Source of the DNA: Nitrospirota bacterium
GTDB taxonomy: Bacteria; Nitrospirota; Thermodesulfovibrionia; UBA6902; JAJYJJ01
Reading direction: 5' to 3'
Assembly (NCBI GenBank): GCA_021789595.1
Contig: JAJYJJ010000021.1
Location: 1 to 35,239, forward strand
Length of the DNA: 35,239 nt
Shown: positions 1 to 4,787 of the stretch, piece after piece
Layout: each line of letters opens with the position of its first letter
Numbering within the stretch: position 1 is the stretch's first letter
The notes under the pieces: model-generated
Databases searched by the model: none
What the model was told of the DNA's origin: nothing
What the model saw: the letters and a program-made list of their open reading frames with translations, nothing else
Translations under genes and position numbers: made by a program

Positions 1-564
1 AAGACAATGGCATTGAGGCAGAATGTCAATGAAATCCCTTTGATGAAGAGATACGCAGATGGACTCGGCCTTAAGTTCAGGTTTGACCCAATGATAAATG
101 CCCGCATAGATATGGATAAAGGCCCTTTGGCAACAAGGCTTGATACAGAGGATGTGCTCAGGCTTGACCTTGAGGATGAAAAGAGATTGAAGGAATGGAA
201 GGAGTTCTGCGATAAGTATATAGGCCATCCTGATTCTGACAGACTCTATACATGCGGGGCAGGAGTAAATTCATTTCATATAGACCCGTATGGAAACCTT
301 GCCATATGCATTATGGCGAGGAAGGATACATATGATCTAAAGCTTGGAAGATTTAAAGAAGGGTGGTATAATTTTATAGGGAGGCTGAGGGACAGGACTA
401 TAAGCTCGGATAACAGGTGCAGAAGGTGTGAGCTTATGTCTCTCTGCGGGCAGTGCCCTGGATGGGCACAGATAGAGCACGGCGATGACGAAAGCCCTGT
501 GGATTATTTGTGCGAGATTGCCCATAAAAGGGCAGAGGCATTCGGGGTAAAGGTGATGGGATGA
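1..564 (+). CDS. Radical SAM/SPASM peptide maturase, C-terminal part (5' end outside window)
   Basis: The frame is open from base 1, so the gene starts upstream and the CxxxCxxC radical SAM core is not visible. Numbered from the Met codon at base 7, seven cysteines match a SPASM auxiliary-cluster domain: C83, C101 (in a Gx4C context, YGNLAIC), then C138-x2-C141-x5-C147-x2-C150 and C169. The stretch before it (KFRFDPMINARID) resembles the end of the radical SAM barrel in PqqE-like enzymes. Such enzymes bind extra [4Fe-4S] clusters and modify ribosomal peptides, for example by making thioether or C-C crosslinks. The stop overlaps the next start (ATGA at 561-564). The two small Cys-containing peptides downstream are the likely substrates. 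The SPASM call is firm; the substrate is inferred. Confidence 0.85.
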   Translation, partial: KTMALRQNVNEIPLMKRYADGLGLKFRFDPMINARIDMDKGPLATRLDTEDVLRLDLEDEKRLKEWKEFCDKYIGHPDSDRLYTCGAGVNSFHIDPYGNLAICIMARKDTYDLKLGRFKEGWYNFIGRLRDRTISSDNRCRRCELMSLCGQCPGWAQIEHGDDESPVDYLCEIAHKRAEAFGVKVMG

Positions 565-1259
565 AGACAATAGAGGATTCAGTAGATGTCATTATTAAGG
601 AGGCTCAGCCTGAGAGGATAATCCTTTTCGGCTCGTCATCAAAGGGGGATCAAGATAGAGATAGCGACCTTGACATACTTGTTATCAAGGAGACGGATAA
701 ACGGCCTATAGACAGGAGGATTGAGATAGAGAGGCTCTTTCCTGAAAGAGACATGCCCCTCGATATCTTTGTTTACACACCAAAGGAGATCAATTACCTC
801 TTCAGCATAGGAAGCCCCTTTATAAACGAGATACTTGAAACCGGGAGGCTAATATATATGAGAAATATCGTTGAAGACTGGGTGCAACTTGCCGAGGATG
901 AATATTCCAATGCCGCTATTCTTTATGAGCACAATAGATATAGAGGGGTCTGTTATCATGCCCAGCAGTGTGTAGAGAAGTCATTGACGGCCCTAATATT
1001 AGAAAAGGGTGGCGAATTTAAGAGGATCCATGATATTGTGAAATTGATTGAGATAGCGAGGACTTATGGATGGAAGATTGAGATCTCCATGAACGATGCG
1101 GTCTTTCTCAATAGTATTTATAAAGGCAGGTATCCTGCTGAAGAGGGGCTTCTTCCATTCGGCGAACCAACTATGGAGGATGCGAAACGGTCTGTAGAGC
1201 AGGCTGAGAAGATGATCGCCATATTGAGGCAGGGGCTCAAGTATAAAAGGGAGGGATAA
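561..1259 (+). CDS. MNT-HEPN fusion protein (nucleotidyltransferase plus HEPN domain)
   Basis: This is a 232-residue protein of two domains. Residues 1-100 are a minimal nucleotidyltransferase of the pol-beta fold, with GSSSKGDQDRDSDLDILV carrying the GS and DxD metal-binding motif, and a third likely acidic residue in PLDIFV. Residues about 105-230 are a HEPN domain (YHAQQCVEKSLTALI) with an Rx4H motif (RGVCYH) like that of HEPN RNases. MNT and HEPN are usually separate genes that form a toxin-antitoxin pair in which the MNT AMPylates the HEPN toxin; here they are one chain. The start overlaps the SPASM gene stop. It lies between a maturase and its probable precursors, so it could be a peptide-modifying nucleotidyltransferase or a self-contained TA passenger. 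The sequence does not decide between these. Confidence 0.85.
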   Translation: MKTIEDSVDVIIKEAQPERIILFGSSSKGDQDRDSDLDILVIKETDKRPIDRRIEIERLFPERDMPLDIFVYTPKEINYLFSIGSPFINEILETGRLIYMRNIVEDWVQLAEDEYSNAAILYEHNRYRGVCYHAQQCVEKSLTALILEKGGEFKRIHDIVKLIEIARTYGWKIEISMNDAVFLNSIYKGRYPAEEGLLPFGEPTMEDAKRSVEQAEKMIAILRQGLKYKREG

Positions 1260-1264
1260 GTTTG

Positions 1265-1822
1265 ATGGCTACTGTATCCTTTGAAAAGACCAAGAAACAA
1301 TACACCTATGAGGATTATGAAAGATTACCTGAAGGCGCGCCCTACCAATTAATAGGAGGAGAGCTTATTATGGTTCCATCACCTGTACCGTATCATCAAA
1401 TTATCTCAAGGAGAATTGGGTTTGAGTTATGGAAATACATAGAAGAAAAGAAACTTGGTGAGGTGCTGTATGCACCCATAGATGTCTATCTTTCAGAGAC
1501 CGAGACCTATCAGCCTGATATTATCTTTATCTCAAATGAAAGAATGAATATTATTGGAGAAAAAAAGATAGAATCAGCGCCTGACCTTGTTGTAGAAATA
1601 CTTTCAGAGTCGACTGCCTATTATGATTTAAGGCATAAAAAACGTATTTATGAATCATCCGGGGTAAAGGAATACTGGATAGTTGATCCAATGGAAAAGA
1701 GTATAGAGGTTTATGAGAACATTAATGGCGAATTTAAGTTGTATAGCGAGACGCAAAAAACAGGCAGGGTAGGTTCCATCCTTCTCGAAGGATTCGGGGT
1801 GGAATTGGAGAAGGTATTCTAA
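1265..1822 (+). CDS. Uma2 family (DUF820) PD-(D/E)XK-fold protein
   Basis: This is a 185-residue protein with the usual Uma2 layout: TYEDYERLPEGAPYQLIGGEL at the N terminus (the glutamate of GGEL included), then VYLSETETYQPDIIFIS, the APDLVVEILSEST strand, and KKRIYESSGVKEYWIVDP. These supply the D...ExK-like residues of a restriction-endonuclease fold. No biological function is established for most of the family. I chose ATG at 1265 over the TTG at 1262 because the purine-rich stretch AGGGAGGG ends about nine bases upstream. It follows the MNT-HEPN gene by five bases and precedes the precursor genes by 35, so co-transcription is likely. Uma2 genes are often mobile passengers, and a role in peptide maturation is not shown. 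Confidence 0.85.
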   Translation: MATVSFEKTKKQYTYEDYERLPEGAPYQLIGGELIMVPSPVPYHQIISRRIGFELWKYIEEKKLGEVLYAPIDVYLSETETYQPDIIFISNERMNIIGEKKIESAPDLVVEILSESTAYYDLRHKKRIYESSGVKEYWIVDPMEKSIEVYENINGEFKLYSETQKTGRVGSILLEGFGVELEKVF

Positions 1823-1857
1823 AGAGGCAGGTCCTCAAAGATAAAAAGGAGGTTTAG

Positions 1858-2025
1858 ATGAAAAAACCTTACAAGAAACCTGAGATAAAAAAGGTGGGGC
1901 TTAAGCCTGAGGAGGCAGTGATTACAGCGTGTAAGACTCGTAATACATCTGGCCCAGGTATCTCCGGACGGTGTGGAATAGTCCTCTTGGGTTTCTGGGT
2001 GGGGTGTAATAGTCCTGGAAGCTAA
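1858..2025 (+). CDS. Putative RiPP precursor peptide A (55 aa)
   Basis: A small gene with a strong ribosome binding site (AAGGAGG, about six bases before ATG). The peptide has a charged, lysine-rich N-terminal half (KKPYKKPEIKKV, then LKPEEAV) that ends at Cys25. A glycine- and serine-rich C-terminal half follows, with Cys39 and Cys50, a hydrophobic patch (GIVLLGFWVG) and the end SPGS. The N-terminal half is almost identical to that of the next small gene while the C-terminal half differs. That is the leader/core pattern of RiPP precursors. The maturase, kinase-like and peptidase genes around it support this. The core boundary near residue 24 and the modification type (thioether links would suit three cysteines) are inferences. 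No signal peptide is visible. Confidence 0.72.
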   Translation: MKKPYKKPEIKKVGLKPEEAVITACKTRNTSGPGISGRCGIVLLGFWVGCNSPGS

Positions 2026-2070
2026 GCAGGTAGCCATTGGCTTTAGCCTAAAAAGGAAAAGAGGGAATAA

Positions 2071-2226
2071 ATGAAAAAACAATATAAGAAGCCAGAGATA
2101 AAGAAGGTAGAGCTTAAGCCTGAAGAGGCTGTGCTTGCAGGATGCAAAACCGCAACATTTGGCTCTTCAAAAAAAAATCCATTTAACTGTGGACGAGGGT
2201 CTAGTTGCAAAGCACAGGGAAGTTAA
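2071..2226 (+). CDS. Putative RiPP precursor peptide B (51 aa)
   Basis: A paralogue of the gene 45 bases upstream. The first 26 residues match with few changes (KKPEIKKVELKPEEAV, then Cys25-Lys-Thr). The rest is unrelated except for three cysteines (25, 40, 46), abundant Gly/Ser/Lys, and the same last two residues, Gly-Ser. The purine run AAAAGAGGGAATAA before the ATG contains a usable ribosome binding site. Conserved leader and divergent core suggest two different products made by the same maturase. The gene is followed 47 bases later by the kinase-like gene. The alternative, a small unrelated Cys protein family, is less likely given the neighbours. Confidence 0.72.
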   Translation: MKKQYKKPEIKKVELKPEEAVLAGCKTATFGSSKKNPFNCGRGSSCKAQGS

Positions 2227-2273
2227 AGGTGCTCTGATAAAGGTTTTAGCCTTCATTTAAAGACTGTTTAAAA

Positions 2274-3239
2274 ATGCACAGAGGTTTGCTCAGATTTAAT
2301 ATCGCGGATTTATCGGTCGCAATTAATGCTGATAGACATTATCTCATAGCTGATGCCTACAGGGATTTCTATGATTCAGTAGAATACAACAACACAGATT
2401 TTCACATTGATATGTCTGGCTCAGATTATTCCCCTCTTTGGCAAAGAGGGGCGAGGGGAGATTTTGGAAATACCAATAACATCAAATGCCTCTTTGACTC
2501 TAAAGGCGTATGGAAGTTATACAAAGATAAAACCAACCGATATATCGTTGTTGCTGGCAATAACGAGTTGATAATTGATAAGCAACTATCCCACGGCGAG
2601 CTTTATGCAAAAACCCTACGCATCACCGGCAGAAATTCATTGCCCTTTTCTTATCCCATTGATGAGCTGTTGATAATAAACCTCTTGCCTTTATTTAATG
2701 GCATCCTTGTCCATTCCTGCGGGATTGATGACAATGGAAGGGGATTTCTCTTCCTCGGCACATCAGGCGCTGGGAAGAGCACAACAGCGAGGCTGTGGTT
2801 AAACCATACAAATCCATCCTCACCCCCCTTCAATTCCCCCCTTGGTAAGGGGGGACACAGAGGGGTCAAGGGGGGGCAGGGAGGGATCTTAAAAGGCGTT
2901 AAAGTTTTAAGCGATGACAGGATAATTATTCGTAAAATGGATGAAAAGTTTTATGCCTATGGGACACCCTGGCATGGCGAGGTGAATATCTGTGATCCCG
3001 GGAGGGTCGAGATAGAGAGGATACTCTTTTTAGAACATTCAGAGAAAAATTATGTGCGACCCCTTTCTATGGTTGATGCAGCAGCGAGGATGTTTGTTCG
3101 ATGCTTTCCAACCTTCTGGGATAAAGAAGGTATGGCATTTACATTGGGATTTATAGATGAGGTGGTCAAGAAGATACCATGCTATGAATTGGGGTTTGTG
3201 CCGGATAGAAGTGCGGTGGAGTTTGTGAGAGGGCTATGA
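2274..3239 (+). CDS. HPr-kinase-like P-loop protein of a RiPP cluster
   Basis: A 321-residue protein with a Walker A loop at 162-170 (GTSGAGKST), followed by LSDDR at 212-216, which corresponds to the acidic strand of HPr kinase/phosphorylase. GTPWHG (230-235) and a C-terminal helical part with RCFPTFWD are typical of the HprK-related proteins found beside radical SAM maturases. Real HprK recognises HPr; these relatives lack that N-terminal domain and are thought to act on peptides, as the lasso-peptide HprK-like kinases do. Residues about 50-66 and 180-205 are low-complexity insertions encoded by palindromic repeats; the second lies between the Walker A loop and LSDDR. The reading frame stays open through both. 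No clear ribosome binding site is seen. The stop overlaps the peptidase start (ATGA, 3236-3239). Confidence 0.8.
   Translation: MHRGLLRFNIADLSVAINADRHYLIADAYRDFYDSVEYNNTDFHIDMSGSDYSPLWQRGARGDFGNTNNIKCLFDSKGVWKLYKDKTNRYIVVAGNNELIIDKQLSHGELYAKTLRITGRNSLPFSYPIDELLIINLLPLFNGILVHSCGIDDNGRGFLFLGTSGAGKSTTARLWLNHTNPSSPPFNSPLGKGGHRGVKGGQGGILKGVKVLSDDRIIIRKMDEKFYAYGTPWHGEVNICDPGRVEIERILFLEHSEKNYVRPLSMVDAAARMFVRCFPTFWDKEGMAFTLGFIDEVVKKIPCYELGFVPDRSAVEFVRGL
2427..2466 (+). repeat. Palindromic repeat read in frame in the kinase-like gene, copy 1
   Basis: A perfect hairpin at 2431-2451 has arms CCCCTCTTT and AAAGAGGGG around GGC, followed by a G-rich tail (GCGAGGGGAG). It encodes about 15 residues (SPLWQRGARGDFG) that interrupt the N-terminal domain. 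The same arrangement, a C-run stem, short loop, G-run stem and G-rich tail, appears again at 2814-2888 and 31259-31290. Confidence 0.7.
2814..2888 (+). repeat. Palindromic repeat read in frame in the kinase-like gene, copy 2
   Basis: The hairpin at 2836-2854 has arms CCCCCCTT and AAGGGGGG around GGT, followed by two more G-runs. It encodes PPFNSPLGKGGHRGVKGGQG, about 26 residues placed after the Walker A loop. The low-complexity translation and absence of any domain role mark it as an inserted interspersed element that has kept the frame open. Confidence 0.75.
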
Positions 3240-3679
3240 AACCTGACATCCAGACCATAACATCCATAATCCTCGATGGGGGTTACCATGCATCTCTGCC
3301 TACCATCGGTTCATCAATGTTTCCTGTTATAAGGACAGGCGACAGGATAACTATAGAAGCCGTTTCAGGCAAGCCTTCCATAGGCGATATAATTGTTTTC
3401 CAGAGTAATGGGCAGATGATATGCCACAGGCTTGTGAAGACCTTCAAAAAAGATGGTGTTCAGTATTACCAGACAAGGGGCGATGCCTTCTTCAAGAGGG
3501 ATATGCCGATAACCTACGAACATATTATAGGCAGGGTCATACAGATTCAGAGGACAAATGTATCCATCTACAGAAGAATCCTCCTCATACTCAGCCCTAT
3601 CACAAACAGATTTACAATCCTGAATGCAGCAGTCGTAAGGGTGCTGATCAAAACAAGGCTCTGGCTGACTGCTTCATAA
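3236..3679 (+). CDS. S26/S24-family signal peptidase-like protein (Ser/His type)
   Basis: A 147-residue protein with box B of type I signal peptidases, GSSMFPVI, whose Ser27 is the likely nucleophile, then RTGDRI, GDIIVF and CHRLV. His64 stands where bacterial LepB has the general-base lysine, as in SipW and archaeal/ER signal peptidases. TRGDAFF supplies an Asp at 83. A hydrophobic segment near residues 114-138 may anchor the C terminus to the membrane. The gene overlaps the kinase-like gene by four bases. Small peptidases of this type recur in RiPP clusters next to HprK-like genes and could remove the leader peptide or assist export; that role is inferred. The stop lies one base from the end of the convergent acyltransferase gene, with no terminator in between. 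Confidence 0.8.
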   Translation: MKPDIQTITSIILDGGYHASLPTIGSSMFPVIRTGDRITIEAVSGKPSIGDIIVFQSNGQMICHRLVKTFKKDGVQYYQTRGDAFFKRDMPITYEHIIGRVIQIQRTNVSIYRRILLILSPITNRFTILNAAVVRVLIKTRLWLTAS

Positions 3680-3680
3680 A

Positions 3681-4787
3681 TCAGATATCAGCCTCATAGA
3701 TCCTGTATTTCTTATAAAGCCTTCCATCCATCATCTCTGCAAGCCTCTGCACAGGATAGTTGTCCTCCAGTATCCATGAAAACTCTACCCTCTTATAGCC
3801 GCCCTCTTTAACAGCCTTGAATCCCTCCCTGAAAAGAAGGGCATCAACCCCTCTTTTTCTGAAGCCCTGCCTTATACCGAGCAGCAGCAGCCTCAGGTCT
3901 GTTATCCTCCTTGAATACCAGAGGGCCTTTACAATGCCAAAGGGGAAAAGTCTTCCATCAAGTCTTTTTAGCACCTGATTCAGATCAGGCAGAAGCATCA
4001 TAAAGCCGACAGGTTCTTCATCAGCCTCTGCAATAAATGCGAGCTCAGGTACTATTACAGGTTTCAGCTCTTTTGCCATGTGGTCTATCTCTTCCTCTGT
4101 CATCGGCACAAAACCCCAGTTTTTCTCCCATGCAGAGTTATATACCCTCTTAAAGACAGCCATCTCCCTGCTGAAGTTCTTCATGTCAAGCGACCTCACC
4201 TTGATGCCTTGCCTCTCTGCTATGGATGCAACGCGATATGCCTTTTCCGGGAGGGTATCCGGGATATTGATTATATAGGCATAGAGGTCTTTGGCCTTTC
4301 TAAGACCATACCTTTCCATGAATCCATGATAGTATCTCTTGTTATATGGCATCATAAGCATGCAGGGGCTGTCAAAACCCTCAAGCAGAAATGCACATTC
4401 TTCATTGGTGGAGAAATTCATGGGCCCGCGCATAACTGCCATACCTCTGTCTCCAAGCCACTGCCTGACCTTATCAAGAAGCCCTTTTGCCACCTCAAAA
4501 TCATCTATGGATTCAAAGAATCCAAAAAAGCCGACATCCTCTTTATGAAATTCGATGTGCCTCTTGTTGAGTATAGCGACAATCCTCCCAACGATATCTC
4601 CATGCTCAATGGCTATGAACGGCGCGATCTCTGCGTGATTGAAAAAAGGGTTTTTGGAAGAAAACTGTTTTTTCATGTCTGACCTTAAAGGGGCAACCCA
4701 GTTTGGGTCATCCCTGTAAAGCCTGAAGGGGAAATCTATAAAGGCATCTAAGCTCTTTTTATCCTTTACATGCAGGATATCAGCCAC
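3681..4787 (-). CDS. bcerS: GNAT-fold N-acyltransferase, probable bacterial ceramide synthase
   Basis: A 368-residue protein with the hallmarks of a large GNAT-like family: RDDPNWVAPL at 25-34, KNPFFNHAEI, GPMNFSTNEECAFLLEGF at 121-138, and a C-terminal acyl-CoA-loop-like segment GIRQGFRKRGVDALL near 309. It starts with GTG, and its G is the last base of the upstream synthase stop (TAGTG at 4785-4789), so translation is probably coupled. In Caulobacter the bacterial ceramide synthase bCerS is a GNAT-family enzyme that acylates 3-ketosphinganine. An acyltransferase of this type coupled to an SPT-like synthase and a reductase fits that role. Family membership is seen in the sequence, while the ceramide function rests on context. 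It could instead acylate another alpha-aminoketone. Confidence 0.7.
   Translation of the reverse strand: MADILHVKDKKSLDAFIDFPFRLYRDDPNWVAPLRSDMKKQFSSKNPFFNHAEIAPFIAIEHGDIVGRIVAILNKRHIEFHKEDVGFFGFFESIDDFEVAKGLLDKVRQWLGDRGMAVMRGPMNFSTNEECAFLLEGFDSPCMLMMPYNKRYYHGFMERYGLRKAKDLYAYIINIPDTLPEKAYRVASIAERQGIKVRSLDMKNFSREMAVFKRVYNSAWEKNWGFVPMTEEEIDHMAKELKPVIVPELAFIAEADEEPVGFMMLLPDLNQVLKRLDGRLFPFGIVKALWYSRRITDLRLLLLGIRQGFRKRGVDALLFREGFKAVKEGGYKRVEFSWILEDNYPVQRLAEMMDGRLYKKYRIYEADI

Follow-up and report, generated by a model that had tools for sequence, protein, structure and literature searches.

The window analysed here, 35,239 nucleotides long, is contig JAJYJJ010000021.1 (C13) of a Nitrospirota genome (assembly GCA_021789595.1; 2.23 Mb, 36 contigs, 99% complete), and at its start lies a gene cassette for a putative ribosomally synthesized and post-translationally modified peptide (RiPP). 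Together with the adjoining contig, it runs in the order PqqD-like RiPP recognition element (RRE), radical SAM/SPASM maturase, MNT-HEPN and Uma2-family genes, two precursor peptides, HprK-like kinase and S26B signal peptidase (Table 1), and a convergent gene begins at 3681, after the S26B gene. The six features named in the original prediction, all on the forward strand, were found where it had placed them, as judged from reading frames and Pfam and NCBIfam matches, and its central claim, a RiPP operon with twin precursors, an HprK-like protein and a SipW-type peptidase, was borne out. Indeed, a conserved leader and a variable core are encoded beside a SPASM maturase, and an RRE is present together with a matching leader motif. 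The second precursor matches the first at E 6e-9 in a search of the whole genome.

Table 1 Features of the cassette (window positions, unless a contig is named)
Feature	Position	Strand	Basis
PqqD-like RRE, 96 aa	contig C34, L009:660-950	minus	PF05402 1.7e-16
Radical SAM/SPASM maturase, 3' part (361 aa in full)	1..564	+	PF04055 1.7e-21, SPASM cysteines
MNT-HEPN fusion, judged a passenger	561..1259	+	Pfam Polbeta/NTP_transf_2 + HEPN
Uma2-family protein, judged a passenger	1262..1822	+	PF05685 8.5e-35
Ribosome-binding site AGGAGG of precursor 1	1847..1852	+	read from the sequence; strong
Precursor peptide 1, 55 aa: leader MKKPYKKPEIKKVGLKPEEAVITA, core CKTRNTSGPGISGRCGIVLLGFWVGCNSPGS	1858..2025	+	leader motif, 3 core Cys, C-terminal Ser
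Precursor peptide 2, 51 aa: leader MKKQYKKPEIKKVELKPEEAVLAG, core CKTATFGSSKKNPFNCGRGSSCKAQGS	2071..2226	+	as precursor 1
HprK/PadeK-type kinase, 321 aa; H147, K168, D214, D215	2274..3239	+	AlphaFold2 fold, conserved residues
S26B (SipW/archaeal-type) peptidase, 147 aa; S27/H64/D83; proposed leader peptidase	3236..3679	+	TIGR02228, SipW models

Base 1 of the window is a contig end. Over its first 127 bases the window is identical to the start of contig C34 in reversed orientation, and the identity stops exactly there, as a shared assembly k-mer would. Joining the two contigs yields a complete maturase of 361 aa; the first 521 bases of its gene, which encode the radical SAM core (CX3CX2C), lie together with the PqqD gene on C34 (L009:1-950, minus strand). 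The PqqD gene lies 10 bases upstream of the maturase gene and is itself preceded by genes for a response regulator and a 1397-aa histidine kinase. We consider the join sound because in L041, the closest relative, PqqD and a 75% identical maturase likewise stand together on a single unbroken contig.

The kinase was used as a query in 100 related genomes, and a kinase profile retrieved 80 loci from all bacteria. Among the related genomes, other genera displayed PqqD-maturase-precursor-kinase-S26 loci without MNT-HEPN and Uma2, the exceptions being a few loci that are rearranged, cut by contig ends or of the SynChlorMet type (L050). The 80 loci contain PqqD in 65 cases and the maturase, the precursor and S26 in 70 each; PqqD, maturase, a precursor of 45-65 aa and the kinase occur all together in 64. 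These 64 loci span at least a dozen phyla (Nitrospirota, Omnitrophota, Chloroflexota, Acidobacteriota, Desulfobacterota and other 'Deltaproteobacteria', Actinomycetota, Planctomycetota, Verrucomicrobiota, Gemmatimonadota, Myxococcota, Bdellovibrionota, Nitrospinota and others), the taxa resting mostly on metagenome-assembled genomes (MAGs), so that single cases may be binning errors. The hosts are mostly uncultured sediment or groundwater bacteria known from MAGs. Across 396 genomes of the phylum, the kinase was found in 71, the precursor in 63 and both in 61 (Fisher p 2e-58), an association somewhat inflated by the training of the precursor profile on kinase-linked peptides. Only two of these genomes, G370 (L183) and G406 (L184), have a precursor without a kinase; both lone precursors carry in-frame stops, neither maturase nor PqqD was found beside them, and they are decayed remnants, traces of lost cassettes. 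As the original prediction required, the small genes are kept next to the maturase in relatives from many phyla; the arrangement is therefore not due to chance. We conclude that the cassette represents a real, widely conserved RiPP family, for which we found no family entry or paper in the open-access literature.

In family f29 of the phylum (apparently Nitrospira; L162-L179), the loci carry PqqD, three radical SAM genes, a precursor, the kinase, NTP_transf_5 and S26. Their precursors contain ...EQAILSxCS... and finish with GPRAS, GPRLS or a similar sequence, the last residue being Ser.

We gathered 117 distinct precursors, and computed leader and core statistics on the 114 that end in Ser or Thr. 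The usual precursor reads [YW]xxPx[LIVC]xx[VI]xLxxEEAVLxx-C-K-x(11-16)-C-x(3-9)-C-x(5-7), with Ser or Thr as its last residue, and Tyr/Trp and the first Cys are 20 positions apart in 66 of the 74 sequences of the all-bacteria set. Leaders follow the published RRE-ligand consensus [YW]xxPx[LVIAFY] (PMC13381572) in 97 of 114 cases, most of the others having Cys at its last place. A Gly, Ala or Ser stands at position -1 from the first Cys in 85/114 and a Leu at -3 in 78/114, which resembles a signal-peptidase site. Three core cysteines are present in 91 of the 114 precursors. Mean identity is 40% among leaders and 16% among cores; likewise, the two precursors of the window keep the leader and tail rules while their cores have diverged. 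The last residue is Ser in 104 and Thr in 10 of the 117 precursors (114 together), as opposed to Ser/Thr ends in 9% of the maturases, 12% of S26, 15% of the kinases, 18% of PqqD and 20% of the NTP_transf_5 proteins of the same cassettes, and no other core position, counted from either core end, exceeds 42% Ser/Thr. The three remaining precursors are the decayed one at L184, a weak and differently built match at L187 (E 2e-3), and the L077 precursor, whose end is overrun by a 26-base inverted repeat. No model in the 2025/2026 copies of Pfam and NCBIfam matched the precursors or the kinase above cut-off.

The enzymes of the cassette retain their active sites. All 153 maturase members keep CX3CX2C, and none of the seven SPASM cysteines varies in a 42-member alignment. 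The maturase profile best matched SkfB (5e-29), PqqE (1e-18) and CteB (3e-14) among PDB sequences, and an AlphaFold2 (AF2) model of the closest relative's maturase gave fold matches led by PqqE, SkfB and SuiB. These nearest solved relatives are all peptide maturases, in line with the peptide substrate that had been proposed. The S26B peptidase scored 2.7e-13 with TIGR02228 (50.1 bits, cut-off 51.85) and 5.7e-8 with the SipW model; its Ser-His-Asp triad is kept in 108-109 of 109 members, and several relatives carry it as a fusion with GNAT or NTP_transf_5 domains. The SipW-like LppS uses a Ser-His-Asp triad, as shown by mutation, and cuts the leader of linear polyphosphorylated peptides (LPP) only with the RRE present (PMC13381572).

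The window kinase gave almost no signal with Pfam and NCBIfam models. Since its profile also matched PDB sequences weakly (HPrK, 0.0026), we predicted its structure: the AF2 model (mean predicted local distance difference test score 87.3) matched the PEPCK and HPrK/P folds in the PDB with moderate template modelling scores. The His, Lys and first Asp are invariant in 130/130 members, and the second Asp position holds Asp or Glu in 129, in a set that counts some genomes twice, being drawn from two overlapping collections. A His-Lys-Asp-Asp motif has been reported for lasso kinases that phosphorylate the C-terminal Ser; PadeK-type kinases act on this residue of lasso precursors, called an extremely conserved site, the terminal position being the known target of PadeK, ThcoK and PsmK (PMC9266682). 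Up to four phosphates are added by kinases related to PadeK, and hexose addition on phospho-Ser has been linked to the NTP-transferase homologue PsmN (PMC9266682). Because PadeK-type kinases target a C-terminal Ser, the simplest reading is that the kinase of the cassette acts on the terminal Ser/Thr.

Two copies of dispersed, partly palindromic repeats are inserted in frame in the window's kinase gene (~2425-2465 and ~2811-2895). One repeat family, containing CCCCTCTTTGGCAAAGAGGGG, occurs at ~24 places in this genome (up to 3 mismatches). The low-confidence loops of the AF2 model (60-65 and 181-206) fall in or beside the insertions. The second insertion directly follows the P-loop helix and is missing from most relatives; the L048 kinase lacks the repeat insertions, whereas that of L041 has its own at similar places. 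At another locus, L042 (G040:C35, 2006-4041), the full kinase gene is followed by a truncated second one (150 aa), with genes for a lone nucleotidyltransferase, a PBECR2-like protein and a DUF2283 protein in between.

Taken together, these observations make it probable that the locus belongs to a hitherto undescribed RiPP family and that its product would be modified by a radical SAM enzyme, phosphorylated at its C-terminus and cleaved by S26B. We propose that the PqqD-type RRE would bind the YxxPx[hydrophobic] motif of the leader, and that the radical SAM/SPASM enzyme would then modify the core, whose three conserved cysteines would most likely enter Cys-linked (thioether) cross-links. The HprK/PadeK-type kinase would phosphorylate the side-chain hydroxyl of the C-terminal Ser/Thr, perhaps several times over. 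Lastly, S26B, with the RRE presenting the peptide, would cleave just ahead of the invariant Cys, after a small residue (...L-x-[GAS] | C-K...), so that the freed product would begin with Cys and be ~25-30 residues long. Many relatives would complete the set with NTP_transf_5, which may add a sugar or nucleotide to the phosphate, and an ABC exporter. Phosphorylation of the terminal residue is well supported by the near-universal Ser/Thr end and by analogy with PadeK, and we hold it to be quite probable; the phosphorylated product of the original prediction thus gains support. The proposal names concrete, testable substrate positions for both the kinase and the peptidase, and provides a sequence rule for finding the family: a [YW]xxP leader, a CK-C-C core and a terminal Ser/Thr.

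Several points weigh against this reading. Its product has not been observed to date, and the co-occurrence of kinase and precursor is inflated as said above. The original prediction looked to the region upstream of base 1 for a radical SAM core, a PqqD-like leader-binding protein and an exporter; the first two lie on C34, and there is no exporter adjacent to the cassette in this genome. The repeat-bearing kinase of the window might be impaired though its catalytic residues are intact. Ten precursors end in Thr, whereas LppK, the HprK-like kinase of the related LPP system, acts on core Ser3 and not on Thr (PMC13381572). L050 has an HprK-like protein and YxxP peptides lacking a terminal Ser/Thr, so that the terminal rule does not follow from the mere presence of an HprK-like gene. 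As to the maturase, PqqE and SuiB make C-C bonds, and a thioether is therefore not assured.

This last point bears on the strongest alternative, in which the maturase performs another radical SAM change (a C-C bond, epimerisation or decarboxylation) and the cysteines serve for disulfides or metal binding. PqqE and SuiB are the best fold matches beside SkfB, and the spacing of the cysteines varies. Yet the sactisynthase SkfB is the best match by sequence, well ahead of PqqE, and three core cysteines are the rule. Since these cysteines are conserved, we lean, by a modest degree, towards a Cys thioether as the likeliest outcome; the alternative is a serious one, with a chance somewhat short of even.

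We regard it as unlikely that, within a RiPP system, the kinase targets another residue or a partner protein, and that the terminal Ser/Thr is conserved for other reasons, such as a recognition tail, an ester or lactone donor, or a point of sugar or lipid attachment. Such a reading draws on LppK, whose Ser3 target lies near the core start (PMC13381572), and on the SynChlorMet peptides of L050. However, the terminal position fits the known target of PadeK, ThcoK and PsmK, and since no non-terminal core position exceeds the above frequency of Ser/Thr, a conserved internal target is lacking.

Decay of the operon, or its chance assembly without a working product, is suggested by the two repeat insertions in the kinase gene, by the foreign genes between maturase and precursors, and by the split of radical SAM and PqqD across a contig end. 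But all reading frames are open, catalytic residues are intact, the leader and tail rules hold in both precursors despite their divergent cores, and precursor 1 has a good ribosome-binding site ahead of it, all of which makes this explanation improbable.

The original prediction had further counted MNT-HEPN and Uma2 as parts of the system, with nucleotidylation of the product as one outcome. This is scarcely credible: the two genes are packed tightly, in line and on the same strand, between maturase and precursors, but each is absent from all 80 related loci and from close relatives, where the maturase runs straight into the precursor, and L042 carries other toxin-antitoxin-like genes, as expected of passengers. 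We therefore rejected both as pathway members and judge them passengers, which makes nucleotidylation by the MNT gene unlikely. MNT and HEPN are usually separate antitoxin and toxin genes, a linked pair in type VII toxin-antitoxin systems; here both domains are fused in one 232-aa open reading frame (ORF), which scored 33 bits with the MntA model (cut-off 60). Toxin-antitoxin-like genes seem to land in these cassettes repeatedly.

A different nucleotidyltransferase, NTP_transf_5, accompanies 33 of the 80 loci, and an ABC exporter 24. The sole NTP_transf_5 (PF14907) gene of the source genome (L192 7310-8434, G000:C34) lies ~49 kb from the cassette, near genes resembling polysaccharide chain-length or export genes, as judged from ORF sequences. 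Polysaccharide-export or chain-length genes also adjoin some cassettes (L046, from ORFs; L051, from Pfam), and capsule loci likewise house LPP and paeninodin clusters (PMC13381572). That the product acts at the surface or in biofilms is a guess. More broadly, the cassettes might form a pan-phylum RiPP class, with radical-SAM Cys cross-links and a C-terminal (poly)phosphate, often decorated by NTP_transf_5 and tied to surface polysaccharide, the three-maturase version being common in f29; we put this forward tentatively, as a little less than an even prospect. Separately, many of the cassettes (16/80 loci; examples of such neighbours are at L044, L047, L049, L116, L122, L127 and L185) adjoin genes for very large proteins that look secreted and end in a peptidase C25 (gingipain-type) domain; these proteins may act in peptide processing or as functional partners.

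The nearest relatives of the cassette are the LPP peptides, the paeninodin-type lasso peptides and the SynChlorMet cassette; membership of each was rejected on one defining test per family. In the open-access literature, with most subscription papers outside it, we found no description of an HprK-like kinase combined with PqqD and a radical SAM enzyme, and the RRE-mining papers checked mention neither a kinase nor a signal peptidase.

LPP clusters share with the cassette a discrete RRE, an HprK-like kinase, a SipW-like S26B peptidase, often an NTP transferase and an exporter (PMC13381572, Nat Commun 2026), as well as the YxxP RRE-binding motif of the leader and links to polysaccharide loci (PMC13381572). 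Indeed, the LPP set of SpI, discrete RRE and HprK-like kinase is fully present in the window. By contrast, LPP clusters are described without a radical SAM enzyme and said to be confined to Bacillota, and their leader reads YxxPxVLxHQxIxFETxxS (PMC13381572), as opposed to YxxPxIxxVxLxxEEAVLxxC here. LPP peptides are phosphorylated on core Ser3 (PMC13381572), whereas the core of the cassette starts with C-K, has three Cys and a terminal Ser/Thr, and conserves no Ser/Thr near its start.

Paeninodin- and pseudomycoidin-type lasso clusters resemble it in their PqqD-like RRE, PadeK-type His-Lys-Asp-Asp kinase, C-terminal Ser and, in some cases, NTP transferases (PMC9266682). The cassette differs in having a radical SAM enzyme and an S26B peptidase instead of the lasso cyclase and the B2 cysteine peptidase. 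Neither a cyclase (Asn-synthetase-like C) nor a B2 peptidase was found within ~5 kb on either side of the window cassette, among the annotated cassettes, or in the ORF maps of close relatives, on which no dedicated cyclase-model search was run.

SynChlorMet (NCBIfam TIGR04248-TIGR04251) likewise combines a PqqD-like protein (ScmD), an HprK-like protein (ScmC) and radical SAM/SPASM proteins, and its example L050 adds an S26-type gene and YxxP peptides. In L050, ScmD, ScmE and ScmF score above cut-off, the two radical SAM proteins (ScmE/ScmF) reaching 647 and 612 bits. The window proteins score 41 bits against a cut-off of 100 for PqqD (TIGR04248), 20 against 125 for the kinase (TIGR04249), and 83 and 65 against 400 for the maturase (TIGR04250 and TIGR04251). 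Three Cys-rich YxxPx[LIVM]-like peptides of L050 (11213-11404, 12232-12435 and 15951-16151, minus strand) have the look of precursors of that cassette, and those tested gave no NCBIfam match.

Finally, the cassette resembles sactipeptide and ranthipeptide systems (SkfB, CteB, PapB) in that a SPASM radical SAM enzyme would act on a Cys-containing precursor, SkfB being the closest solved maturase by sequence. It differs from them in that the RRE is a separate protein, the kinase and S26B belong to the set, and the thioether is putative. The cassette thus joins two RiPP chemistries, radical-SAM maturation and HprK/PadeK phosphorylation, that we found described only apart.

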